The position numbers were made by a program, and so were the translations under genes. Shown here one piece after another: positions 14,050 to 41,220 of a DNA stretch of 64,000 nucleotides. The DNA comes from Pseudomonadota bacterium (GTDB lineage: Bacteria; Pseudomonadota; Gammaproteobacteria; Xanthomonadales; Rhodanobacteraceae), in contig JAKAWV010000010.1 in the NCBI GenBank assembly GCA_021827205.1, positions 1 to 64,000 on the forward strand, in the 5' to 3' direction. A model generated the notes under the pieces. It did not search any database and was not told the DNA's origin. It saw only the letters and a program-made list of their open reading frames with translations. How positions within the stretch are numbered: position 1 is the stretch's first letter; every line of letters begins with the position of its first letter.

Positions 14050-14912
14050 CCGCAAGCCGCGGCGCGCACCAGCGGCGCCAATTCGGGATCCTCCAGCGCC
14101 AGCGCCAGCGTGGCGCGCACCAGACCGGCCTTGTTGCCACAGTCGAAGCGCGTGCCCTCGAAGCGATAGGCCAGCACCTCGCGCTCGTGCAGCAGCGCCT
14201 CGATGGCATCGGTGAGCTGGATCTCGCCGTTGTTGCCGGGCGCGGTCTCGCGCAGCAGCTCGAAGATGCGCCCGGGCAGCACGTAGCGCCCGACGATGGC
14301 GAGGTTGGACGGCGCGTCCTCGGGCCTGGGTTTTTCGACCACGTAGCGCAGCTTGGCGGCGCGCTCGCTCACGGGCTCGGCATCGACGATGCCGTAGCGC
14401 CACGTGTCGGCGCGCGGCACTTCTTCCACCGCGACCACGCCGCAACCCCGCACGGCGGCCAGTTCGGCCATCTGCTTGAGCGCGCCGGCACGCGGCGCGC
14501 GGATCAAATCATCCGGCAGGATCACGCCAAAGGGCTCATCGCCGATCACCGGTGCCGCGCACAGCACGGCATGGCCCAGACCGCGCGCCTCGGGCTGGGT
14601 CACGAACACGCAGCGCACGTGCGCGGGCAGCACGCTGCGCACGATCTCCAGCAGCTCGGTCTTGCCGGCCTCGGCCAGCTTCTGCTCCAGCTCGTAGGCA
14701 TTGTCGAAGTAATCGGCGATGGCGTGCTTGTAACGGTTGGTGACGAACACCAGCGTGTCGGCGCCGGCTTCCACGGCCTCGTCCACCGCGTACTGGATCA
14801 ACGGTCGATCGAGCACCGGCAGCATTTCCTTGGCCACCACCTTGGTCGCCGGCAGAAAACGCGTGCCCAGGCCGGCCACGGGAAACACCACCTTGTGCAA
14901 ATGCCGGCTCAT
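14046..14912 (-). CDS. galU: UTP-glucose-1-phosphate uridylyltransferase
   Basis: 288-residue nucleotidyltransferase making UDP-glucose from UTP and glucose-1-phosphate for LPS and other glycans. The N-terminal nucleotide-binding motif PVAGLGTRFLPATK is followed by KEMLPVLDRPLIQYAVDEA and later by the GalU-type VEEVPRADTWRYGIVD and YVVEKPRPEDAPSNLAIVGRY. Length is typical for bacterial GalU. It overlaps the WbpM-like gene upstream and the PLP enzyme downstream by 4 bp each. Confidence 0.93.
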   Translation of the reverse strand: MSRHLHKVVFPVAGLGTRFLPATKVVAKEMLPVLDRPLIQYAVDEAVEAGADTLVFVTNRYKHAIADYFDNAYELEQKLAEAGKTELLEIVRSVLPAHVRCVFVTQPEARGLGHAVLCAAPVIGDEPFGVILPDDLIRAPRAGALKQMAELAAVRGCGVVAVEEVPRADTWRYGIVDAEPVSERAAKLRYVVEKPRPEDAPSNLAIVGRYVLPGRIFELLRETAPGNNGEIQLTDAIEALLHEREVLAYRFEGTRFDCGNKAGLVRATLALALEDPELAPLVRAAACG

Positions 14913-30003: not shown

Positions 30004-30624
30004 TCAGGCCACCACCAGGCCACGCTCGCGCGCCAACCGGTACAAGTCCAGCTCGGAGCCCGCACCCAGCTTGCCCATGAGGCTGGCGCGGTGGATGTAC
30101 ACGGTCTTCTGGCCGATGCCCAGTTCGGCGGCGGCCTGCTTGGGCGTGAGCCCGCGCGCCAGCAGCAGGAACACCTCGTGCTCGCGCGCGGTCAGGCGCG
30201 CCAGGGCATCGCCGTCGCGCGTGCTCTGCCTGCGCGCGATATCGCTGCTGAGGTAGCGCTCGCCGGCCAGCACGGCACGCAGCGCGGCGATCAGTTCATC
30301 GGCGGCGGCACACTTGCTGACATAACCCCAGGCGCCGCGGCGCAGCGCCTCGGAAATATACGGCTCGGTGTCATGCATGCTCAGCACCACCACGCGCAGG
30401 CCGGGGCGCAGGCTGAGCAGGTGCTCGAGCAGCGGCAGGCCGCCGCCGTTGGGCAGCGAGAGATCGAGCACCACCAAGTCGGCCGCGTTGGCGAGGATGG
30501 TCTCCAGCGCTTCCTCGGCGTCGCCGCATTCGGCGATCACATCGAGTCCCGGCTCGGTCTCGATCAGGCGCTTGAAACCCTCGCGCACGATGGCGTGGTC
30601 ATCCACCAGCACGATGCGAGTCAT
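30004..30624 (-). CDS. NarL/UhpA-type response regulator
   Basis: 206-residue regulator. The receiver domain has acidic residues at VDDH (8-9), phosphoacceptor Asp54 (VVLDLSLPNGG) and the conserved Lys in YVSKCAAADE. The C-terminal LuxR-type helix-turn-helix (LTAREHEVFLLLARGLTPKQAAAELGIGQKTVYIHRASLM) binds DNA. It is divergent from a MASE1-like histidine kinase 100 bp away, which is very likely its partner. The start at ATG 30624 gives MTRIVLVDDH. Its regulon is unknown. Confidence 0.9.
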   Translation of the reverse strand: MTRIVLVDDHAIVREGFKRLIETEPGLDVIAECGDAEEALETILANAADLVVLDLSLPNGGGLPLLEHLLSLRPGLRVVVLSMHDTEPYISEALRRGAWGYVSKCAAADELIAALRAVLAGERYLSSDIARRQSTRDGDALARLTAREHEVFLLLARGLTPKQAAAELGIGQKTVYIHRASLMGKLGAGSELDLYRLARERGLVVA

Positions 30625-30724
30625 GGCGCCACGATAGCAGAGCCTTGCGCGGCGCAAGCGCGACATGCTTGGCGGCCATCGCACGGCGATCCGCGGCGCG
30701 CGGCGCGCCTTGTACCATGCCGCC

Positions 30725-32329
30725 ATGCTGCGTCTGTCCCCGCCCAAGATATCGCCGTGGCTGCAAGGCCCGGCCGCCGCGCTCGGTTACGCGCTGGCCT
30801 GGGCGGGGCTGTTCGAGATTTCGCAGTTGTACTGGTATCTCCCCGCCGGGCTGCGTTTTGGCGCGCTGCTGCTGGCGCCGCGGCGGCTGTGGCCGTGGCT
30901 GATCGGCGCGGAGTGGTGCGTCGGCCTGCTGCTGCGCCTGCATGGCGCGCATCCGGTGCACGATCCGTTGCTGCTGGCGTGGATGGTGTTGCCGCAACCG
31001 CTGGTGGTCGCCGCGATCATCGCGCTGATGCGGCGGCGCGGAATGCCGGTGCTGATCGAGCGGCCGGAACGCGCCGTGCGCCTGCTGGTCGGCGCCCTGC
31101 TCGCCGCGCTGGCCAGCACCGCGGTCAATGCCCCGATCCTGCAAACACTGGTTGGCCTGCCGCTGCTGCATGTCAGCAGCATGCTGGCCAACTTCGCCCT
31201 GGGCGATTACGTCGGCATCCTGCTGATCGCGCCGCTGCTGATCATGCTGCTGCGCGCGCCGTTCGATAACGCGCAGGCACGCGCGCTACTCACCGACATG
31301 CTGCTGATCCTGCTGCCGGCCATCATTGGTCTGCTGATGATGATGGGCGAAAACGCCCAGTTGGCGCGTTACGCGCGCGTGCTGACCCTGGTGCCGGTGT
31401 TGTATTTCGCTTTCCGCCATGGCTGGCGCGGCGCCAGCCTGGCGATGCTGGCCAGCAGCGCGGCGGTGACCGCGCACGCGGGCCTGCAACTGCGCCCCGA
31501 GGCTCCGGCCGAGGCGCAGTTGTTCCTTGCCGTGGCCGGCACCGGTGCGCTGCTGCTGGGCGCTGCCACCGATGCCCTGCGCCAGAGCGGCCTGCGTCTG
31601 GCGCTGCAAAACGCGCGTCTGGCCAACGCCAACCAGCGTCTCGATCAACTCGCCCAGCAGTTGGCCACCGCCGCGCGCCGCAACCTGCGCGAGGAAGAAG
31701 GCGAGCGCAAGCGCCTCGCCGCCGAGTTGCACGATGAGCTGGGACAGAACCTCACCGCCATCCAGATCCGCGTGAAGATCGCGCAAAACCGCCTCGAAAC
31801 AGCCGGTCTCGGTGACGTATCAGCTTCGATCAACGACATCGTGGCCACCATGCGGCGCAGCGTGCGCGGGCTGCTGGAATCGCTGCGGCCGGCGGCACTG
31901 AACGAATTCGGCCTGGCGCGCGCCCTCGATGAGGGCCCGCTGCGCGATCTGATCCAGAGCGCGAACATGAATTACAGCGTCGAGTTGCGCGGCGACCTGC
32001 GCCTGCTCGATGAGGACATACGCAATACGCTGTATCGCATCGTGCAGGAAGCCGCGACGAACTGCGTGCGCCATGCGCGCGCGCACTCCTTCAGCCTGCG
32101 CTTGCGCGTGGGCCGGCGCGGCGATCAATTGCTGGCCTTGCTCGCTATCCGCGATGACGGCGTAGGCCTGGGCAACGCCCACGGCGTGCCGTCCACACAT
32201 GGCCTGGGCCGCGGCCTGCACGGCATGCGCGATCGTGTGCTGGCGCTGGGCGGCACATTCCGCGTCCTCGAGAGCACGCACGGACTGCGCCTGCGCATCC
32301 TGCTGCGCCAACCGCATCGCATGCACTGA
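30725..32329 (+). CDS. MASE1-like sensor histidine kinase (UhpB-type)
   Basis: 534-residue kinase with about eight N-terminal membrane helices resembling a MASE1 sensory domain (WYLPAGLRFGALLLAPRR, GDYVGILLIAPLLIMLLR). A coiled linker leads to a HisKA_3 dimerisation domain with the phosphoacceptor in RKRLAAELHDELGQNLTAIQ (His336) and an HATPase_c domain (IVQEAATNCVRHA, IRDDGVGLGNA). This is the NarX/UhpB class that partners NarL-type regulators, in line with the divergent regulator gene. The start at ATG 30725 is preferred over an upstream TTG. The ligand is unknown. Confidence 0.87.
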   Translation: MLRLSPPKISPWLQGPAAALGYALAWAGLFEISQLYWYLPAGLRFGALLLAPRRLWPWLIGAEWCVGLLLRLHGAHPVHDPLLLAWMVLPQPLVVAAIIALMRRRGMPVLIERPERAVRLLVGALLAALASTAVNAPILQTLVGLPLLHVSSMLANFALGDYVGILLIAPLLIMLLRAPFDNAQARALLTDMLLILLPAIIGLLMMMGENAQLARYARVLTLVPVLYFAFRHGWRGASLAMLASSAAVTAHAGLQLRPEAPAEAQLFLAVAGTGALLLGAATDALRQSGLRLALQNARLANANQRLDQLAQQLATAARRNLREEEGERKRLAAELHDELGQNLTAIQIRVKIAQNRLETAGLGDVSASINDIVATMRRSVRGLLESLRPAALNEFGLARALDEGPLRDLIQSANMNYSVELRGDLRLLDEDIRNTLYRIVQEAATNCVRHARAHSFSLRLRVGRRGDQLLALLAIRDDGVGLGNAHGVPSTHGLGRGLHGMRDRVLALGGTFRVLESTHGLRLRILLRQPHRMH

Positions 32330-32488: not shown

Positions 32489-34444
32489 TCAAAGCACGCC
32501 CACCCCCAGCACGATCACCAGCAGCAAGCCGATCAGCGCCAGATAAAGATTCATATCGCCCGACTGCAAGCCGACGATGCGATCGGACAGCCACCACACC
32601 GCGCGCGTCAGCGGCCGGAACAGACGCGACTCGAACAACGGCGCGATGCGCTGCTCGAAGCTCAGTCGGCGCACGAAGTATTCACGCTCGACGTGCTCGT
32701 GTTCCATGTCCAGACGCGGCCGATAAATGAAGCTGTAGAACACCTGCACCGCATGCGAGAAGGTCAGTGCCGTGGTCGCCGCGCGCGGCGCGGGGGGATT
32801 GCCGCCAAACCACACCGGCGCGCGGCGCACGCCATGGTGCCGCCGCGACCACAGCGCCAGCGTGATCGGCAGCAGCGCCAGCAGCGGCATGACGATGATC
32901 AACAGCGTCGGCGAAATGAAGGCGAAGTGCGCAGTCAGCGGCACCAGCAGCAAGCCGCTGCGCAACTGCATCGCGGACTGCGCGAACCAGTGCTGCGCCA
33001 CCGGATCGAGCGCGTACAGCCACCACGGCATGCCCACCGCCAGTACCAGCACCAGCACACCGAGCAATCCCACGGCGAGCGCATTGCCGCGCGGCACCGA
33101 CGCGGTATTCGCGGTGGGCTCGCCCTGCATGCCCAGGCCAATGACCTTGATGAAGGTCGCGTAGGCCAGCGCCACGGTCAGCGCCAGTCCGACGCCGCCC
33201 AGCGACAAGGCCAGACGCCCAGCCAGATCCGGCACCTGAAAGTTCTGGAACAAGGTCTGGAAGGCAAACCATTCGCTGACGAAACCCGCCTGCGGCGGCA
33301 TGCCGGCCAGACTCATGCCGGCGAACACCACGCCGACGCCATACGTCCACAGGCTCGCGCGCAGCAGGCCCGACTGTTGCAGGCGATAACTGCCGCGCGC
33401 CCTGTAGGCGCCGTCGGCGCCCAGTAGCATCGCGCCCTTAGACAGGCTGTGTCCGGCCAGATGCAGCAGCCCGACCAGCCACGCCAGCATGCTCAGATCG
33501 GCCAGACCGGCGCTGCGGAAAATCAGCGCCGCGCCCAGCAGCAAGGTGGCGATGGCGGCGTTTTCGGCCGAGGACAAGCCCAGCAACTGGCGCCAGTCAT
33601 CGGCCTGCAGCGCGTACAGCACCGCCAGAATCGCGCTGAACGCGGCGACCGCCAAGGTGATGATGCCCAGCAGTTCATCGGGCGGCAGCCAGATCAGCAG
33701 TGCGCGCGCCAACGCAAACCACGCGGCGTTGAGCACGATGCCCGACATCAGGCTGGCGCTGGCGCCGCTGCCACTGGCGTAGGCACCGGCAAACCATTCA
33801 TAGAACGGCAGCAAGCCCAGCTTGGCGCCGAAACCGATCAGCATGAGGATGCCCAGGCCGACCACGGCCGCGCCGGGCAGGCCGATGAGCCCTGCGGCGA
33901 ACCCGTCCATGGCCATGCCGCCGCCGAGCAGCGCGAAAGTCAGCCAGCCGGCCAGCAGCGCCACCGCGCCCACCTCCAGCAAGGCCAGCATCAGCAACGT
34001 GGCGTGACCGGAATCCTCGCGCACGCCGAGGCGCTCGGACAGCAGCATCAGCGCGCCGCCCAGGCTCATCAGTTCCCACGCGATCAGAAACACCACGCCA
34101 CCCTGCACGCCCATCACGCCCAGCGCGCCGAGGATGGCCGCGATCGCGCCCACGTACCAAACACGCAAACGCGCCGCCGGACTGCCCAACGCCAGCGCCA
34201 GCGTCGCCGGAATCGCGCCAAACAACGTCAGCCACAGCCCCGCGCCATCCAGCGAAAAATGGGCCGCTGGCACGCCGGCGAGGCGCAAGGCTTCCGCGCC
34301 GACCAAGGCGCCGGCACAAGCGATGACCACACCGATGCCGCCCAGCACCGCCAGCGCGCGCGTCAATCCCGGAACAGGCAACACGACGGCCAATGCCGCG
34401 GCCAGCAGCAGCGCCAGCACGGCGACCGTGAACAGCTCAGCCAT
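32489..34444 (-). CDS. Antiporter-like membrane subunit (HyfB/NuoL family), last gene of Ehr-like operon
   Basis: 651-residue, about 16-helix proton-conducting subunit homologous to hydrogenase-4 HyfB and complex I NuoL/M. The conserved Glu of the proton channel is in FLIAWELMSLGGAL and the conserved Lys in GFGAKLGLLPFYEWF; HLAGHSLSKGAMLLGADGAY and MPPQAGFVSEW are also family signatures. It ends with a longer C-terminal region (RRHHGVRRAPVWFGGNPP). The start at ATG 34444 overlaps the preceding gene by 8 bp. In E. coli hyfB is near the start of the operon, while here it is last. Confidence 0.85.
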   Translation of the reverse strand: MAELFTVAVLALLLAAALAVVLPVPGLTRALAVLGGIGVVIACAGALVGAEALRLAGVPAAHFSLDGAGLWLTLFGAIPATLALALGSPAARLRVWYVGAIAAILGALGVMGVQGGVVFLIAWELMSLGGALMLLSERLGVREDSGHATLLMLALLEVGAVALLAGWLTFALLGGGMAMDGFAAGLIGLPGAAVVGLGILMLIGFGAKLGLLPFYEWFAGAYASGSGASASLMSGIVLNAAWFALARALLIWLPPDELLGIITLAVAAFSAILAVLYALQADDWRQLLGLSSAENAAIATLLLGAALIFRSAGLADLSMLAWLVGLLHLAGHSLSKGAMLLGADGAYRARGSYRLQQSGLLRASLWTYGVGVVFAGMSLAGMPPQAGFVSEWFAFQTLFQNFQVPDLAGRLALSLGGVGLALTVALAYATFIKVIGLGMQGEPTANTASVPRGNALAVGLLGVLVLVLAVGMPWWLYALDPVAQHWFAQSAMQLRSGLLLVPLTAHFAFISPTLLIIVMPLLALLPITLALWSRRHHGVRRAPVWFGGNPPAPRAATTALTFSHAVQVFYSFIYRPRLDMEHEHVEREYFVRRLSFEQRIAPLFESRLFRPLTRAVWWLSDRIVGLQSGDMNLYLALIGLLLVIVLGVGVL

Positions 34445-35276
34445 CGCTGCGGCCTCCGTGCAGGTGTTGCTCGCTGCGCCCCAGCAACAGCAGCAGCGCA
34501 TGCATGATCGCCGCCGGGTTGGGCGCGCAGCCGGGCAGATACACGTCCACCGGTATCAGCTCCTGCAGGCCGCTGCCCCCAGCGTAACCCTCGCGCGCCA
34601 TGCCGCCGCTGATCGCGCAGGCACCCATGGCCATCACCCACTTCGGCTCGGGCATGGCCTCCCACGCGGCACGCAGCGGCGCGCGCATCGGCTCGGTGAC
34701 GGTGCCGGTGACCAGCAGCAAATCGGCCGCGCGTGGTGAGGCGGTGAAAAAAATTCCCAGGCGGTGCAGGTTGTAGAACGGATTCATCAGCGCTTGCAAT
34801 TCCGACTCGCAGCCGTTGCAGGAACCGGCATCGACATGGCGGATGTGCAGGCTGTGCCTGAAGCGTCGCGCGATCGCGTTTTGCAGCGCCAGCGCGGTGC
34901 CGTCCAGCGGCGCCGGCGCGGCTTGCGGATCGAATTGCAGATCCGCGCGCGTGCGCGTGCCCAGCGCCCAGTCTTCGCTGGCCTGCAGGGTGCCACCGGG
35001 ACACACCTCGACGCAGCGCTGGCAGGCGATGCAGCGCCCGTAATCCAGCGCGATACCGTGGCGCGGAACGGCATCCGCGGCGGCGGGCAGCTCGACCCGA
35101 CGCAACGCGTCGGTGGGGCACGCCGCGACACAGGCCGCGCAGGACTCGGCGCACGTCTGCGCGGTGACGAGTGGCATGCCCTGCACGCCGTGCTGGCCGG
35201 CGGCCTGCGCATCGCCCTCGGGCCATGCGCTGCTGGCGCGGCCGCGGGCGAGTCCGAACAGGGTCCATAGCGCCAT
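34437..35276 (-). CDS. Fused 2[4Fe-4S] ferredoxin and NuoB/HyfI-like subunit
   Basis: 279-residue fusion. Residues 42-92 form a bacterial ferredoxin-type domain with eight Cys (42, 46, 49, 53 and 82, 85, 88, 92; each group ends CP), like HyfH/NuoI. Residues about 140-265 match the NuoB/HyfI small subunit, with the N2-type cluster ligands Cys153, Cys156, Cys220 and Cys250 (GSCNGCESE, GACAISGG, YLPGCAPNP). In E. coli hydrogenase-4 these are two separate proteins. All cluster ligands are present, so the electron wire looks intact. The start at ATG 35276 has GAGGATTGAG just upstream. Confidence 0.85.
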   Translation of the reverse strand: MALWTLFGLARGRASSAWPEGDAQAAGQHGVQGMPLVTAQTCAESCAACVAACPTDALRRVELPAAADAVPRHGIALDYGRCIACQRCVEVCPGGTLQASEDWALGTRTRADLQFDPQAAPAPLDGTALALQNAIARRFRHSLHIRHVDAGSCNGCESELQALMNPFYNLHRLGIFFTASPRAADLLLVTGTVTEPMRAPLRAAWEAMPEPKWVMAMGACAISGGMAREGYAGGSGLQELIPVDVYLPGCAPNPAAIMHALLLLLGRSEQHLHGGRSDG

Positions 35277-35286
35277 GGCTCAATCC

Positions 35287-36753
35287 TCAGCGATCACAGC
35301 CGGCGATGGTGCTGCCGAAGCTGGCTTCATTGATGGCGTAATCCATCATGTTGGTGCCATGCACGGTGTACGGAAACACGCGCCAGTTGGAGTACGAGGG
35401 CGATTTGATCTTGACCCGCGCCAGGCGCCCGCTTGCATCCGTGTGCACCACGTAATACACCGAACCGCGCGGCGATTCGGCCCAACCCAGTCCGATGCTG
35501 TCGGCGGGCACCGCGCAAGGCGCCAGCACCGGCCCCGGCGCCAGATGCGCCAGTAGATGGCGCAACAAGACGAAACTGGCGCGCAGCTCCGCGCCGCGCA
35601 CGCGGTAGCGCGCATAGGCATCGCCATCCTTGTGCAACGCGACGTCCGGCGCGTGCTCGGCATACGCCGCATACGGATGATCGCGGCGCAAATCGCGATC
35701 CAGATCCGAGGCGCGCTCGACCGGCCCGGTGGCACCCTGATCGAATGCCACCTGGCGCGGCAAGGAACCGGTGGTATGCAGGCGATCGAGAAAACTCGAG
35801 GTCACCTCGAGCTGATCGAGATAGCGCAGGCTGGCGCTTTCCAGCTTGCCCAGGTGCGCCACGAAATCCGATGGCAACGCCAGATCGCGACGCAGGCCCC
35901 CGGGGCGCAGCACGTTCATCGGCAGACGATGCCCGCACACGCGCGCGGTCAGTTGCTTGGCTTGTTCTTCCAGCAAACGCCCCTCGGCCTGACCGACTTT
36001 GAGCGTGGTCGCATCGGCCAGCACGCCGAGGTAATGCAGATGGTTGTAGAGGCGCTCCATCTCGGCCAGCACGCTGCGCCAGACGCGCGCGCGCGGCGGC
36101 GCCTCGATGCCGGCGGCGTCCTCGATGGCCTGGCAAAAAGCCAACGCATGCGCCAGCGCGCCCACGCCGGAAACGCGCTCGGCCAGCACCACGGCCGCAT
36201 CCGGTACCAAGCCCTGAAAGCGCTTTTCCATGCCGCGATGCTTGAGGAACAAGCGTGGGTGGTAGCGCAGGATGCGTTCGCCAATGTAGAAAAAACGGAA
36301 CTGGCCCGACTCGAACACATCGGCGCGAATCGGTCCGAAGTCCAGCTCCTGCACGTCGTCGCCTTCGACCTCGGGCAGCACATGCGGCGCCGGATAGTGG
36401 CCATCGTCCATGGCCGCAAAAAATGGCGCGGGATCCGTGCCGCGCTCGATCACCAGCGCATACGGCTCGGGGTGATCGAGCACGCCGACACCGGAAAGAT
36501 CCTGCATCTCGCGCTCATACCAGCCCAGCAGCGGCACATGCGCCGCCATGCTGGGCAGGCCACCCGGTGGCACCGCCACGCGCCACAACTCGAACGGTTT
36601 GCCGGCCCCGGGCGCGGCCAGATAACACGCCTCGATGCGCCCATCGACGCTGCTCGCGTACACCATCTGCATGCGCCCACCCTGCACCAGCAGATTCTCG
36701 ATGTTGCCGGGGACGTCCGTGGCACGCAGATGCAGCACCAGCATGTTGCTCAT
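35287..36753 (-). CDS. Large subunit, NuoCD/HyfG-like, lacking NiFe cysteine motifs (Ehr-like)
   Basis: 488-residue fusion of a NuoC-like N-terminal domain (about 1-165) and a NuoD/hydrogenase large-subunit-like domain (HRGMEKRFQGLVPD, then AEMERLYNHLHYLGVLAD). In [NiFe] hydrogenases the metal is held by RxCGxC and a C-terminal CxxC. Here the first site reads RVSGVG (193-198), with both Cys replaced, and the C-terminus is FGSTIAGCDR with a single Cys. No NiFe centre can be built, so this is not a working hydrogenase subunit; it fits the energy-converting-hydrogenase-related (Ehr) group. The start overlaps the upstream gene by 4 bp (ATGA). Confidence 0.85.
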   Translation of the reverse strand: MSNMLVLHLRATDVPGNIENLLVQGGRMQMVYASSVDGRIEACYLAAPGAGKPFELWRVAVPPGGLPSMAAHVPLLGWYEREMQDLSGVGVLDHPEPYALVIERGTDPAPFFAAMDDGHYPAPHVLPEVEGDDVQELDFGPIRADVFESGQFRFFYIGERILRYHPRLFLKHRGMEKRFQGLVPDAAVVLAERVSGVGALAHALAFCQAIEDAAGIEAPPRARVWRSVLAEMERLYNHLHYLGVLADATTLKVGQAEGRLLEEQAKQLTARVCGHRLPMNVLRPGGLRRDLALPSDFVAHLGKLESASLRYLDQLEVTSSFLDRLHTTGSLPRQVAFDQGATGPVERASDLDRDLRRDHPYAAYAEHAPDVALHKDGDAYARYRVRGAELRASFVLLRHLLAHLAPGPVLAPCAVPADSIGLGWAESPRGSVYYVVHTDASGRLARVKIKSPSYSNWRVFPYTVHGTNMMDYAINEASFGSTIAGCDR

Positions 36754-38204
36754 GACGCCGCCCCCAGCGAGTGCGCGATCTGCCCGAACCACTGCGTGAA
36801 CAGCGGCGGCCACCACAGGCCCAGCACCAGCAGCGCGGCCACCGCCAGCAGCATCGGAATCCACGTCATCAAGCCCGGCAGCGGTCCGCTGGGCGGCGTC
36901 GTGGCCGGGCGCGCGTACATCAGACGAAAGTGGTTGAGGAAGCCGACGAAAATCACGATCAGCAGCAGCAGGAACAGGATCGCCACCCAGCGCGTGCCGC
37001 TGCCCTGCCAGCCGGCCATCAGCACCGACAGCTCGCTGCGAAACAAGCCGAACGGCGGCGCGCCAGTGATGGCCACGGCGCCGGCCAGCCACAGCCACGC
37101 GACGCCCGGCATGGCCGCGGGCACATCGCGCATTTGTTCGATGTCGTGCGTGCCGTAGCGATGCACGGCGCTGCCCGCGCCGATGAACATCAGCGTCTTG
37201 TTGATGCTGTGGTTGAGCATGTGATACAGCGCGCCGAACACGCCCAGCACGCCGCCAAAACCGAAGCCCAGCGCGATCACGCCCATGTGCTCGACGCTGG
37301 AATAAGCCAGCATGCGCTTGAGCCCGCGCTGACGCATGATGAACAGCGCGCCGACGATCAAGGACACCACGCCCAGCGCGATCAGCACGCGGTGCGGCCA
37401 TGCACCGTGACCGGCGATGTCGGTGGCTGCGAGAAAACGCACGATGCCGAGCATCGCGCAATTCAGCAGTGCCCCTGAAAGCATCGCCGAAACCGGCGCC
37501 GGAGCCTCGCTGTGCGCATCCGGCAGCCATGTGTGCATGGGCGCAAGTCCCGCTTTGACGCCATAGCCCACCAGCGCCAGCAGAAAGCCCAGTTGCAGCA
37601 GCACCGTGGGCATCCTCGGCGCGATCGCATCCAGCGTCGACCAGTCCAGCGTGTACGTGGGGCCAAGCACGAAGGTGCCACCCCAATACAGCAATACCGT
37701 ACCCAGCAGGGCGATGCTGATGCCGCCGGAAACGATGATGATGTACTTCCACGCCGCCTCCATGCTCTCGGCGCGCCGCTCGTAGCCGACCAGAAACGTA
37801 CTCACCAGCGTGGTCAGCTCGATGCCGATCCAGTACACGCCGATCATGTTGGCCATGGGTGCGGCGAACATGGTCCAGGCGAACAGCGCGAACAGCGCGT
37901 AGAAATTCGGCAGACGCCGCGCATCTTCGCCGTGACGCATGTAGTCCAGCGCGAAGAACGAGGACAGCAGGTACACCACCGCCACGCACATCAGCACCCA
38001 GGCGCCGATGCGATCGACGTACAGCATCCGATCGAACCAGATGTGCGGTGTATCGGCGCTGACCAGCAGCAGCACGCTGACCGGAAAGCACACCAGCGCG
38101 GACAGCAGATTGACCCAACCCATCGCGCGCCGCACCAGCAGCGACCACAGCACCGTCACCAAGGGCGCGGCCCACAGCACCATGATCAGCGCGGGCTGGT
38201 TCAT
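36750..38204 (-). CDS. Antiporter-like membrane subunit (HyfF/NuoN family)
   Basis: 484-residue, about 14-helix proton-conducting subunit. The conserved Glu is in YWIGIELTTLVSTFLV and the conserved Lys in GYGVKAGLAPMHTWLPDAHSEAPAPVSAMLSG; HMLNHSINKTLMFIGAGS and TGAPPFGLFRSE are also typical of HyfF/NuoN/MrpD-type proteins. It is a second antiporter-like subunit of the Ehr-like complex, next to the large subunit. The start at ATG 38204 lies 1 bp after the preceding stop. Confidence 0.87.
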   Translation of the reverse strand: MNQPALIMVLWAAPLVTVLWSLLVRRAMGWVNLLSALVCFPVSVLLLVSADTPHIWFDRMLYVDRIGAWVLMCVAVVYLLSSFFALDYMRHGEDARRLPNFYALFALFAWTMFAAPMANMIGVYWIGIELTTLVSTFLVGYERRAESMEAAWKYIIIVSGGISIALLGTVLLYWGGTFVLGPTYTLDWSTLDAIAPRMPTVLLQLGFLLALVGYGVKAGLAPMHTWLPDAHSEAPAPVSAMLSGALLNCAMLGIVRFLAATDIAGHGAWPHRVLIALGVVSLIVGALFIMRQRGLKRMLAYSSVEHMGVIALGFGFGGVLGVFGALYHMLNHSINKTLMFIGAGSAVHRYGTHDIEQMRDVPAAMPGVAWLWLAGAVAITGAPPFGLFRSELSVLMAGWQGSGTRWVAILFLLLLIVIFVGFLNHFRLMYARPATTPPSGPLPGLMTWIPMLLAVAALLVLGLWWPPLFTQWFGQIAHSLGAAS

Positions 38205-38205
38205 C

Positions 38206-38892
38206 TCAGCCCACCAGCTTCTGCAGCGCATGGCTGCCGGTGGCACCGACCGAGGCCATCAGATAACGCACCAGCACCGCGAAACAGGTGACCGCCACCA
38301 GCAGGTCGAACAGCAACACCAGCTCGATCATCAGCGGCATGCCCGGCACCAGAATCTGCGAGCCGAGAAAGATGCCGTTTTCCAGCATCAGGATGCCGAG
38401 GATCGAACTCACCGCCTCGCGCCGTATCGTCAGCATCAGGAATCCGATCAGCTTGATCGCCAGCATCACCGTCAGTGCCAGCAGCACCACGCGCGTCTCG
38501 ATGTTCACCGCATGGCCGATGCGGTAGGCCACGATCACCGCGAAGATCACCAGCACCGCGCCCAGCACCAGCGCGGTGGCAGGCTGCACGATTTCGTGCA
38601 GTTCGCGGTTGACGTGCAGGCGCTTGAGCACCCACAGCAGCATTAGCGGCAGCACCAGCCCGCGGAACAGCGCCGTCAATGCGGCGACGAAGTACAGCTC
38701 GGTGTAACCGCCGGCCCAGCCCATCAGCGCCGAGAGGATCGCGATCAGCCACGACTGCACGGCGAAGGCCACCATGTAATCCCTGAGCCAGCGCGAGCCC
38801 AGCATCACGAACGCCAGCACCAGCGCGCCGATCACGATCAGGCTGAAAATCGAGGCCAACAGCGGCGTGAAATGCAGGGCAACCATGGGCAT
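38206..38892 (-). CDS. Small membrane subunit (HyfE/NuoK family)
   Basis: 228-residue membrane protein with about seven hydrophobic helices. The C-terminal half resembles NuoK/HyfE (SSILGILMLENGIFLGS, with the NuoK-like Glu in a helix, then MIELVLLFDLLVAVTCFAVL). It is longer than NuoK because of the N-terminal extension typical of HyfE. The start at ATG 38892 shares one base with the TGA of the preceding gene (TGATG). Confidence 0.83.
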   Translation of the reverse strand: MPMVALHFTPLLASIFSLIVIGALVLAFVMLGSRWLRDYMVAFAVQSWLIAILSALMGWAGGYTELYFVAALTALFRGLVLPLMLLWVLKRLHVNRELHEIVQPATALVLGAVLVIFAVIVAYRIGHAVNIETRVVLLALTVMLAIKLIGFLMLTIRREAVSSILGILMLENGIFLGSQILVPGMPLMIELVLLFDLLVAVTCFAVLVRYLMASVGATGSHALQKLVG

Positions 38893-39833
38893 CACCGGAT
38901 CTGGTTGGCGACCATCGCCAACACGGCGAACACGAAGGCCGCGGCCAGTGGTTCCTGGTAGCGGTAGAAGCGCAGGCGCGATTGCACGGTTTCCACGCCG
39001 ATCACTGCGCCGGCGATGACCGCGAACTTGAGCGCGATGGCGCCCAGCGTGCCCAGCACGCCGATTGCGCTGCCTTGCGCCGACAGCCCCCACGGCAGGA
39101 TGAACACGTTGGCGAAGATGGTGTAGAGGATGAATTGCTTCATCATCCCCGCCCACTTCAGCAGCGCCAGCAACGGGCCGGAATACTCCAGCACCCGCGC
39201 CTCCTCGATCATGTACACCTCGATGTGCGTGCTGGAGTGGATCGGCAGGCGATCGGTCTCGGCCAGCAGCAGCACGAAAAACGCCGCCACCAGAAACAGA
39301 TGCGCCGGACTCCAGTACACCTCGATGTGCCGCACCAGCAGGTGGTTGACCACGAACGGCAGCATCGCCTGCGCCATCAGCGTGATGCCGACGAATACCA
39401 GGATGAGGATGGGCTCGGCGAGGATGCCGATCAGCACCGTGCGGCTGGCGCCCATGCCGCCGTAGCTGCTGCCCGAATCCATGCCGGCCAGATTGATGAA
39501 GAACGAGCCCAGGGTGAGGATCAGGCCGCCGCCGAGGATGTCGCCCATGTCCGACAGCGGCAGCGGGTAATTGGTGAGCACCGGGATCAGGATCGGCACC
39601 GTCAGCATTGCCGTGAACGCCACGAACGGCGCGGCGATGAAGATCCAACTGGCCGAATCCGGCAACACCGTCTGCTTGCCGAACAGCTTGATTAGATCGC
39701 GCCAGGGTTGCAGCAGTCCGGGGCCTGTCGCGCGCTGCACGCGCTCCTCGTAGCGCAGGATGAAACCCTGCAGCAGCGGCGCCGCCAGCAGCACCGTGAG
39801 CACCTGACCGATCTGCAGCAGTACGTCACGCAT
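38892..39833 (-). CDS. NuoH/HyfC-like membrane subunit, first gene of the Ehr-like operon
   Basis: 313-residue, eight-helix subunit that links the peripheral arm to the membrane arm in complex I-like enzymes. Conserved features are GPGLLQPWRDLIKLFGKQ near residue 37 and the Glu-rich cytoplasmic loop LLLAETDRLPIHSSTHIEVYMIEEARVLEYSGP, analogous to the charged loop of NuoH/HyfC near the quinone site. The start at ATG 39833 has GGAG 8 nt upstream; a GTG at 39857 is less likely. It heads six overlapping genes. Confidence 0.87.
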   Translation of the reverse strand: MRDVLLQIGQVLTVLLAAPLLQGFILRYEERVQRATGPGLLQPWRDLIKLFGKQTVLPDSASWIFIAAPFVAFTAMLTVPILIPVLTNYPLPLSDMGDILGGGLILTLGSFFINLAGMDSGSSYGGMGASRTVLIGILAEPILILVFVGITLMAQAMLPFVVNHLLVRHIEVYWSPAHLFLVAAFFVLLLAETDRLPIHSSTHIEVYMIEEARVLEYSGPLLALLKWAGMMKQFILYTIFANVFILPWGLSAQGSAIGVLGTLGAIALKFAVIAGAVIGVETVQSRLRFYRYQEPLAAAFVFAVLAMVANQIR

Positions 39834-40098
39834 ACGCGGAACTCCGCGCGGCGGCACGGAAAAAACATGCAGGAACCCCGTGCGCCAGGTTCAGCGTACT
39901 TCTGCGAGGCATGCCATCACTCCCGGTGGTGGGTCTCGTAGGAGTCATCAGCCCGTTGCGGGCATTCCAGGCGAACTCCATCGCCTGCTGGTGCGTTGTG
40001 CACCGATTACATGCCGACGCGGGGAACTTGTCAATCGTGTTCAGCGTCTGTGCATTTGGATGCTTACCATCCGACCCACCGTCAGTAAGGAGTTCCCG

Positions 40099-41220
40099 AT
40101 GTCCTCTGCAACCGCGCTGAAGACTCGAGCCGAAACCTTGCTGCAATCCGCCGGACTGCGCTTGAACGGTCCCGACGCCTGCGATCCGCAAGTACATGAC
40201 GAACGCCTGTATGCGCGCACCTTCGCGCATGGCTCGCTGGGTTTCGGCGAGGCTTACATGGATGGCTGGTGGGACGTCGCCGATCTGACCGGCATGCTCG
40301 CGCGCGTCATCGGCGCGCACATCGATGACCGGCTGCACAACCTCGACACGCTGATCTCGCACCTGCGCGCGCGCTGGCTCAACCTGCAGCACGGACGCCA
40401 TGCCTGGGACATCGGCAAGCGCCACTACGACACCGGCAACGATCTGTTCGAGGCCATGCTCGGCAAGCGCCTGGTGTACAGCTGCGGCTACTGGGTTGCA
40501 GCCGACAACCTGGACGCCGCGCAGGAAGCCAAGCTCGATCTGGCCTGCCGCAAGCTGCAACTCAAGCCCGGCATGCGCGTGCTCGACATCGGCTGCGGCT
40601 GGGGCGAAGCGCTGAAGTTCGCCGCCGAGCGCTACGGCGCCAGCGGCGTGGGCGTCACCGTGTCCAAAGCACAGGCCGAGTGGGCGCAAAACCTGTGTCG
40701 TGGACTGCCCATCGAGATCCGTCTGCAGGACTACCGCGAGGTCAAAGAGACCTTCGACGCGGTGTATTCCATCGGCATGTTCGAGCACGTCGGCTGGCGC
40801 AACTACCGCACCTATTTCAAAACCGTGCGCAAGTGCCTCAAACCCGACGGACTCTCGCTGCTGCACACCATCGGCAACAACGACTCACCCAGCAAACCCG
40901 ATCCGTGGATCGAGAAATACATCTTCCCCAACTCGATGATCCCCGCCGCCAGCCAGGTTGCGACGGCGCTGGAGGGTTTGTTCGTGGTCGAGGACTGGCA
41001 CAACTTCGGCCCCGACTATGACCGTACCCTGTGCGCGTGGAAACAGAATTTCGACGCAGCTTGGCCGCGTCTCGCCGCACACTACGACGAACGCTTCAAG
41101 CGCATGTGGCATTTTTACCTGTGCACCTCGGCCGCGGTGTTCCGCACCCGCCGCGACCAGTTGTGGCAACTCACGCTGTCACCCGACGGCGTGCCGGGCG
41201 GCTATCGAGTGCCGCGCTGA
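40099..41220 (+). CDS. cfa: Cyclopropane-fatty-acyl-phospholipid synthase family methyltransferase
   Basis: 373 residues, close to E. coli Cfa (382). This family methylenates unsaturated acyl chains of membrane phospholipids using S-adenosylmethionine. The SAM-binding motif is MRVLDIGCGWGEALKFAAERYG; HYDTGNDLFEAMLGKRLVYSCGYW and the later SIGMFEHVGWRNYRTYF and IEKYIFPNSMIPAASQV are typical Cfa segments. The start is ATG 40099, with AAGGAG 5 nt upstream. The product would stabilise membranes under acid or stationary-phase stress, a known family role. A weak -35-like TTGTCA lies at 40028-40033. Confidence 0.88.
   Translation: MSSATALKTRAETLLQSAGLRLNGPDACDPQVHDERLYARTFAHGSLGFGEAYMDGWWDVADLTGMLARVIGAHIDDRLHNLDTLISHLRARWLNLQHGRHAWDIGKRHYDTGNDLFEAMLGKRLVYSCGYWVAADNLDAAQEAKLDLACRKLQLKPGMRVLDIGCGWGEALKFAAERYGASGVGVTVSKAQAEWAQNLCRGLPIEIRLQDYREVKETFDAVYSIGMFEHVGWRNYRTYFKTVRKCLKPDGLSLLHTIGNNDSPSKPDPWIEKYIFPNSMIPAASQVATALEGLFVVEDWHNFGPDYDRTLCAWKQNFDAAWPRLAAHYDERFKRMWHFYLCTSAAVFRTRRDQLWQLTLSPDGVPGGYRVPR

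Follow-up and report, generated by a model that had tools for sequence, protein, structure and literature searches.

What is a membrane complex for that is built like hydrogenase-4 and has no hydrogenase site? This question is raised by an operon in a 64,000-nucleotide stretch of DNA (hereafter the window; positions 1 to 64,000 of contig JAKAWV010000010.1, assembly GCA_021827205.1, from a gammaproteobacterium of the Rhodanobacteraceae). A reading made from the letters alone, without database searches (the sequence-only reading), had assigned its six genes to the energy-converting-hydrogenase-related (Ehr) complexes. Such complexes have been described in Sulfobacillus, Riflemargulisbacteria, comammox Nitrospira and ammonia-oxidising archaea, and their function is unsettled (PMC4378227, PMC6349859, PMC10432482). 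Here, the window operon is identified, almost certainly, as an Ehr operon without [NiFe] ligands that is controlled by a fluoride riboswitch. The riboswitch, which sits just beyond the coordinates covered by the sequence-only reading, is new with respect to that reading, as are two further Ehr operons in the same genome and the placement of the operon in a sub-clade that is linked to fluoride and has its ferredoxin domain fused.

Gene content and leader of the operon

Six open reading frames (ORFs), overlapping or nearly so and free of internal stops, run from 39833 to 32489 on the minus strand. The Pfam and NCBIfam matches of their products agree with the subunit kinds named in the sequence-only reading and mark a hydrogenase-4/complex-I-like membrane complex. 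In order of transcription, the products are a NuoH/HycD-like membrane subunit (38892–39833; PF00146 (NADHdh), 114 bits) with conserved acidic channel residues; a HyfE-like membrane subunit (38206–38892; NF008556, 48.8 bits, under the equivalog cut-off); a HyfF-like antiporter-type subunit (36750–38204; PF00361 (Proton_antipo_M), 178.9 bits); a NuoCD/HycE-like large subunit without NiFe ligands (35287–36753; PF00346, 132 bits); a fusion of a 2[4Fe-4S] ferredoxin domain (8 Cys) to a NuoB/HycG-like part (4 Cys, CxxC type) (34437–35276; PF01058 and PF00037), whose closest solved chain in the NuoB-like part is HycG; and an antiporter-type subunit resembling HyfB, i.e., hydrogenase-4 subunit B, with a C-terminal extension (32489 to about 34444; PF00361, 73 bits).

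An Rfam scan of the surroundings placed a fluoride riboswitch aptamer (RF01734) in the 5' leader of this operon, at 39994–39932 on the same strand and about 100 nucleotides upstream of the NuoH ATG (39833). Its score of 52.2 bits exceeds the gathering score of 34, with a genome-wide E of 1.6e-13, and regulation of the operon by the riboswitch is, at the level of sequence, strongly supported. The ribosome site of NuoH, GGAG, lies inside a perfect inverted repeat (CGCGGA-GT-TCCGCG; 39833–39850, minus strand) that forms a hairpin in the fold and might allow the riboswitch to control translation. A simple scan of the leader found no intrinsic terminator, and the leader as a whole folded no better than shuffled sequences; a terminator and the ribosome-site hairpin are both candidates for the switching mechanism.

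The large subunit was compared with its relatives using a profile searched against 84,980 species genomes, which returned 466 relatives; the best 80, from Gamma-, Alpha- and Betaproteobacteria and Acidobacteria, were kept. None of the four [NiFe] cysteines is present in the window protein: the first motif reads RVSGVG and the terminus FGSTIAGCDR, without the C-terminal CxxC, as the sequence-only reading had it, and the pattern is shared by the homologues. In the first motif, S/A and G/D/A take the place of the ligands, and Cys stands there in 0 of the 80, so the loss is a stable trait and not the sequencing error that the sequence-only reading had allowed for. The protein matches Complex1_30kDa and Complex1_49kDa, its complex I 49-kDa score being far above that of the nickel hydrogenase family, and the NiFeSe_Hases match is limited to the first ~69 positions. 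Its AlphaFold model (pLDDT 88.3) is closest in structure to HycE (7z0s_E; Z 43.9, 481 residues, root-mean-square deviation 2.4); MBS and MBH chains are not among the 50 fold matches listed for the model, which has no bearing on relatedness. The earlier observation that maturation genes are missing nearby extends to the whole genome for HypD, which was not detected in the 99.25%-complete assembly (other hyp genes were not searched). A search for formate dehydrogenase, which the sequence-only reading had proposed, found none: the only molybdopterin-family match in the genome is NuoG, in a complete nuo (complex I) operon, and the genome thus has no formate dehydrogenase.

Clade specificity of the riboswitch link

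The six-gene order is identical in all 73 complete loci (of 82 loci) of the relatives. A riboswitch on the same strand and no more than 400 nucleotides upstream of NuoH was sought with a covariance model trained on 20 riboswitches from these loci; of the 69 assessable loci, 63 have one, at a distance of 69–257 nucleotides (50/56 when the loci that supplied training sequences are left out). Three of the six loci without a riboswitch in this range carry one about 480–550 nucleotides upstream, and one has a sub-threshold match. Conserved neighbours include DUF190 (39 loci), enolase (24), CrcB (23), two MutS_V families (22 and 19), an MFS transporter (18) and cyclopropane synthase (12), together with dynamin-like GTPases and pyrophosphatase; in five Paraburkholderia loci there is a CLC gene, each with its own riboswitch (5/5). 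Because crcB, DUF190, enolase, mutS-like, clc and pyrophosphatase genes are known fluoride genes, this company supports a fluoride-linked reading of the complex. Together with the RF01734 aptamer of the leader, it also places the operon within the fluoride-riboswitch regulon (crcB, eriC/clc, eno, ppaC, mutS and 'formate hydrogen lyase'), with the difference that the 'formate hydrogen lyase' member is here an Ehr complex without NiFe ligands.

The same genome permits a comparison within one organism. A search with the large-subunit family found, besides NuoD (L007), two more NiFe-less Ehr operons, L005 on contig C27 and L006 on contig C31; we refer to the window type as A and to these as types B and C. 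The small subunit has 8 ferredoxin Cys (two clusters) in the window operon, 4 (one cluster) in L005 and no ferredoxin domain in L006. An RF01734 match of 26.1 bits, under gathering, is exactly placed 5' of the NuoH gene of L005, and the nearby crcB gene is preceded by another of 32.5 bits, slightly under gathering, so that C27 holds a fluoride island in the order riboswitch and Ehr operon, then riboswitch, crcB, DUF190 and histidine phosphatase. The genome-wide RF01734 scan found no riboswitch at the type-C operon (L006:7203-14500). Its only further match, on contig C38 (22.5 bits), overlies an aldehyde dehydrogenase gene and was hence dismissed as chance.

Phylogeny was consistent with this division. 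In a 71-row tree, for which the program gave a long-branch warning and from which published Ehr sequences were left out, all sampled NiFe-less proteins (A+B+C) group together in a single clade (100/100), separately from HycE-type hydrogenases. Type A (100/100) joins type B (100/98), with type C outside, which makes the fluoride-linked proteins a single lineage. Together with the missing NiFe ligands and HypD, this position upholds the Ehr assignment of the sequence-only reading. The operon also shares with known Ehr complexes the kinds of subunit, as in Sulfobacillus, with its six syntenic genes of the nuoH/nuoL/HyfE/HyfB type; it differs in the riboswitch and in the fusion of a ferredoxin domain to the NuoB-like subunit, both of which are missing from the sampled type-C Ehr, apart from rare small subunits of the L006 kind in which a ferredoxin motif precedes the NuoB part. 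Type C is itself widespread, in about 57 of 397 Proteobacteria genomes.

Controls gave the same picture. The 66 genomes with type-C Ehr or true hydrogenase-3/4 operons yielded 19 fluoride riboswitches, not one of them at such an operon, under stricter filters that may have lost weak riboswitches. The model of the window clade had no match at E<=1e-3 in 60 regions, mostly with type-C Ehr or true group-4 hydrogenases, the nearest being one partial match (E 0.0066) in L201. In a reverse test, the Rfam model was applied to 100 genomes of another proteobacterial family and 72 riboswitches were traced downstream: 23 led to crcB and 5 to an operon like that of formate hydrogenlyase (FHL), and the NiFe cysteines were absent from all three complete large subunits of the latter. 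The link to the fluoride riboswitch is thus clade-specific. The new point is the identity of those complexes that were examined behind the riboswitch: they make up an Ehr clade that lacks NiFe ligands and carries its ferredoxin domain as a fusion. Our literature search, which did not cover Baker et al. 2012, found no paper linking Ehr with fluoride.

Proposed electron path, pumping and role

The sequence-only reading had suggested that an unspecified redox reaction is coupled to ion pumping; the conserved residues agree with such coupling, and the physiology, which it left open, is where the riboswitch, unseen at the time, adds context. Each of the 12 Fe-S Cys of the ferredoxin–NuoB fusion is kept in 77–79 of 79 sequences. 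The proximal-cluster motif of the NuoB part, CNGC, has the full length seen in HycG and MbhJ, with which it aligns gaplessly, and the cluster therefore looks fully ligated, in line with the complete ligands noted earlier. Both antiporter-like subunits retain their Glu and Lys, as had also been noted, namely the Glu of transmembrane helix 5 (TM5), the Lys of TM7 and the Glu of TM12. In HyfF, E143, K231, K350 and E405 (numbered from the ORF start at 38246) are found in at least 95% of 79 homologues, and in HyfB, E143, K227, K355 and E410 (from the ORF start at 34501) are conserved. E. coli HycC, in contrast, lacks the TM7 Lys (PMC9474812). As read from the sequence, a complete electron wire and pump, without the hydrogenase site, stand behind a fluoride aptamer.

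How such a machine could serve a cell under fluoride is suggested by what fluoride does: HF acidifies the cytoplasm, export requires the proton-motive force, and Na+/H+ antiporters rank next in frequency among the riboswitch-linked genes (PMC11139923). A fluoride-induced proton pump fits this. We propose that the complex is probably a redox-driven proton pump, induced by fluoride and likely fed by ferredoxin, which offsets the proton leak caused by incoming HF and exported F-. Cytoplasmic fluoride would bind the leader riboswitch and, as expected from the riboswitch family, switch the operon on. Electrons would then enter through the fused ferredoxin domain, which suggests reduced ferredoxin as the donor, and the genome has a POR-type 2-oxoacid:ferredoxin oxidoreductase gene as a possible source. 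They would cross the two [4Fe-4S] clusters to the proximal cluster of the NuoB part and exit at the former NiFe/quinone pocket, with quinone as the likeliest acceptor, while the redox energy passed via the NuoH channel residues to HyfF and HyfB would drive protons outward. Since HF comes in as a weak acid and F- is exported by CrcB, each cycle would import one proton; the complex would restore the pH and the membrane potential, which F- export requires. For the pumping mechanism taken by itself, with its direction, donor and acceptor inferred, we put the chances at slightly better than even.

Several points weigh against this proposal. Type B has Cys for one ferredoxin cluster only, and in a divergent type-B relative the ferredoxin extension is missing; the donor may thus not be ferredoxin in every case. 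That relative, a riboswitch-linked Ehr-like operon at L262:3000-8100, has a large subunit reading RAEGLS and a NuoB part reading GSCAVCESEI. In the window large subunit, Phe and Gly stand at the positions that we take, on the basis of Nqo4, to hold the His and Tyr quinone ligands of NuoD, and quinone reduction by the complex is accordingly a guess. In addition, the complete complex I of the genome means that a second pump is not obviously required. The window complex resembles complex I in NuoH, NuoCD, NuoB, the antiporter folds and the acidic channel residues; it differs in the CxxC rather than CC arrangement of its NuoB Cys, in the missing quinone ligands, and in that no NuoE/F/G-like gene lies near any of the 80 loci. 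The last point, with the lack of formate dehydrogenase, led us to reject a complex of Ehr with formate dehydrogenase as proposed for Riflemargulisbacteria.

The reading found in the fluoride literature is a different one. 'Formate hydrogen lyase' has been listed under the fluoride riboswitch since 2010 (PMC2864571), and a 2024 review, which likewise names it among the common riboswitch-linked genes, takes it as formate oxidation in fermentation (PMC11139923); on this account, the operon would encode a genuine FHL or group-4 [NiFe] hydrogenase, induced to shift metabolism toward fermentation. The kinds of subunit are indeed the same, and E. coli FHL-1/hydrogenase-4 (Hyc, Hyf) share the CxxC proximal cluster and supply the closest solved large and small subunits. 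However, the NiFe cysteines are absent from all 80 relatives, the genome has no detectable HypD or formate dehydrogenase, and the window large subunit falls in a separate, strongly supported clade. We consider this account extremely improbable and, barring a novel metal site, reject an active hydrogenase for the window clade: at least this clade of the riboswitch-listed 'formate hydrogenlyase' cannot be formate hydrogenlyase. Two puzzles are joined here, the unsettled function of Ehr and the unexplained frequency of formate hydrogenlyase genes under fluoride riboswitches; if they concern a single clade of NiFe-less, proton-pump-like complexes, the fermentation reading is wrong for the window clade.

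Other roles have to be weighed for a NiFe-less complex. The proton-motive force might instead push electrons uphill to ferredoxin, so as to provide low-potential electrons for repair under fluoride stress. This reverse running would draw on the reversibility of machines of the complex I type, on the conservation of the ferredoxin domain and on the tie between fluoride stress and oxidative stress (PMC11139923). Fluoride already drains that force, however, and no conserved ferredoxin-using gene was seen near the loci, and we find reverse running unlikely. A further option is that HyfF and HyfB chiefly exchange cations for H+ or move fluoride themselves, with the redox arm serving as a gate; it draws on the Mrp relationship of both subunits and on Na+/H+ antiporters being common riboswitch-linked genes (PMC11139923). 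The 12 strictly conserved Fe-S Cys would be superfluous for a pure exchanger, and loci with the complex often carry CrcB or CLC for F- as well, which leaves this option rather improbable. A solved group-4 relative that also lacks NiFe is Pyrococcus MBS, which combines two antiporter-like pump modules with an Fe-S wire fed by ferredoxin and has a catalytic proximal cluster; the Cys motif of that cluster is three residues shorter, with three Cys ligands and one Fe without Cys (PMC7684303). The window complex could likewise reduce polysulfide or another disulfide at the proximal cluster to drive pumping. Its motif is not shortened, however, and sulfur genes are absent among the conserved neighbours, making such a reductase very doubtful. 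The operon also differs from MBS/MBX in having no Mrp cluster genes. Similarly slim are the prospects of a respiratory halide pump, i.e., redox-driven primary export of HF or F- itself through HyfF and HyfB. If the two puzzles do concern one clade, at least one Ehr lineage gains a directly testable physiological role, for which Dyella, Frateuria, Fulvimonas, Paraburkholderia and Labrys offer culturable soil carriers. It would then follow, too, that cells facing HF at low pH may need, beyond an ion channel, an energy-converting complex dedicated to the task.

Neighbouring genes and related loci

A divergent gene for cyclopropane fatty acid (CFA) synthase (40096–41220, plus strand; CMAS, 281 bits) is a possible partner of the window operon; no riboswitch was detected for it on the plus strand. 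In the congener locus L040, the divergent CFA synthase gene has its own fluoride riboswitch (14246–14310, plus strand; 34.3 bits), as do 4 of the 12 CFA synthase genes in related loci, and CFA synthesis may be part of the fluoride response by way of a less leaky membrane. The two-component system adjoining the operon (30004–32329) was considered as its regulator and rejected, having no tblastn match in ten related loci.

Fluoride islands repeatedly contain dynamin-like GTPases and two families of MutS_V-type ATPases (e.g., L111:19980-21422, L119:2553-4103, L053:14101-16101 and L079:7774-9525), some of the MutS genes with their own riboswitch. Family f9 of the same taxonomic order (L026-L030, L032 and L033) has a NuoD-like paralogue on a long branch, reading RICVPDP and, at the C-terminus, SLDACPPEVDR, with Cys at unusual positions close to the former NiFe motifs. 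Another genome, G704 (L240, L244, L255, L257, L260 and L275), carries 20 fluoride riboswitches on several contigs together with type-A and type-B Ehr operons, which makes its organism a candidate extreme fluoride specialist.

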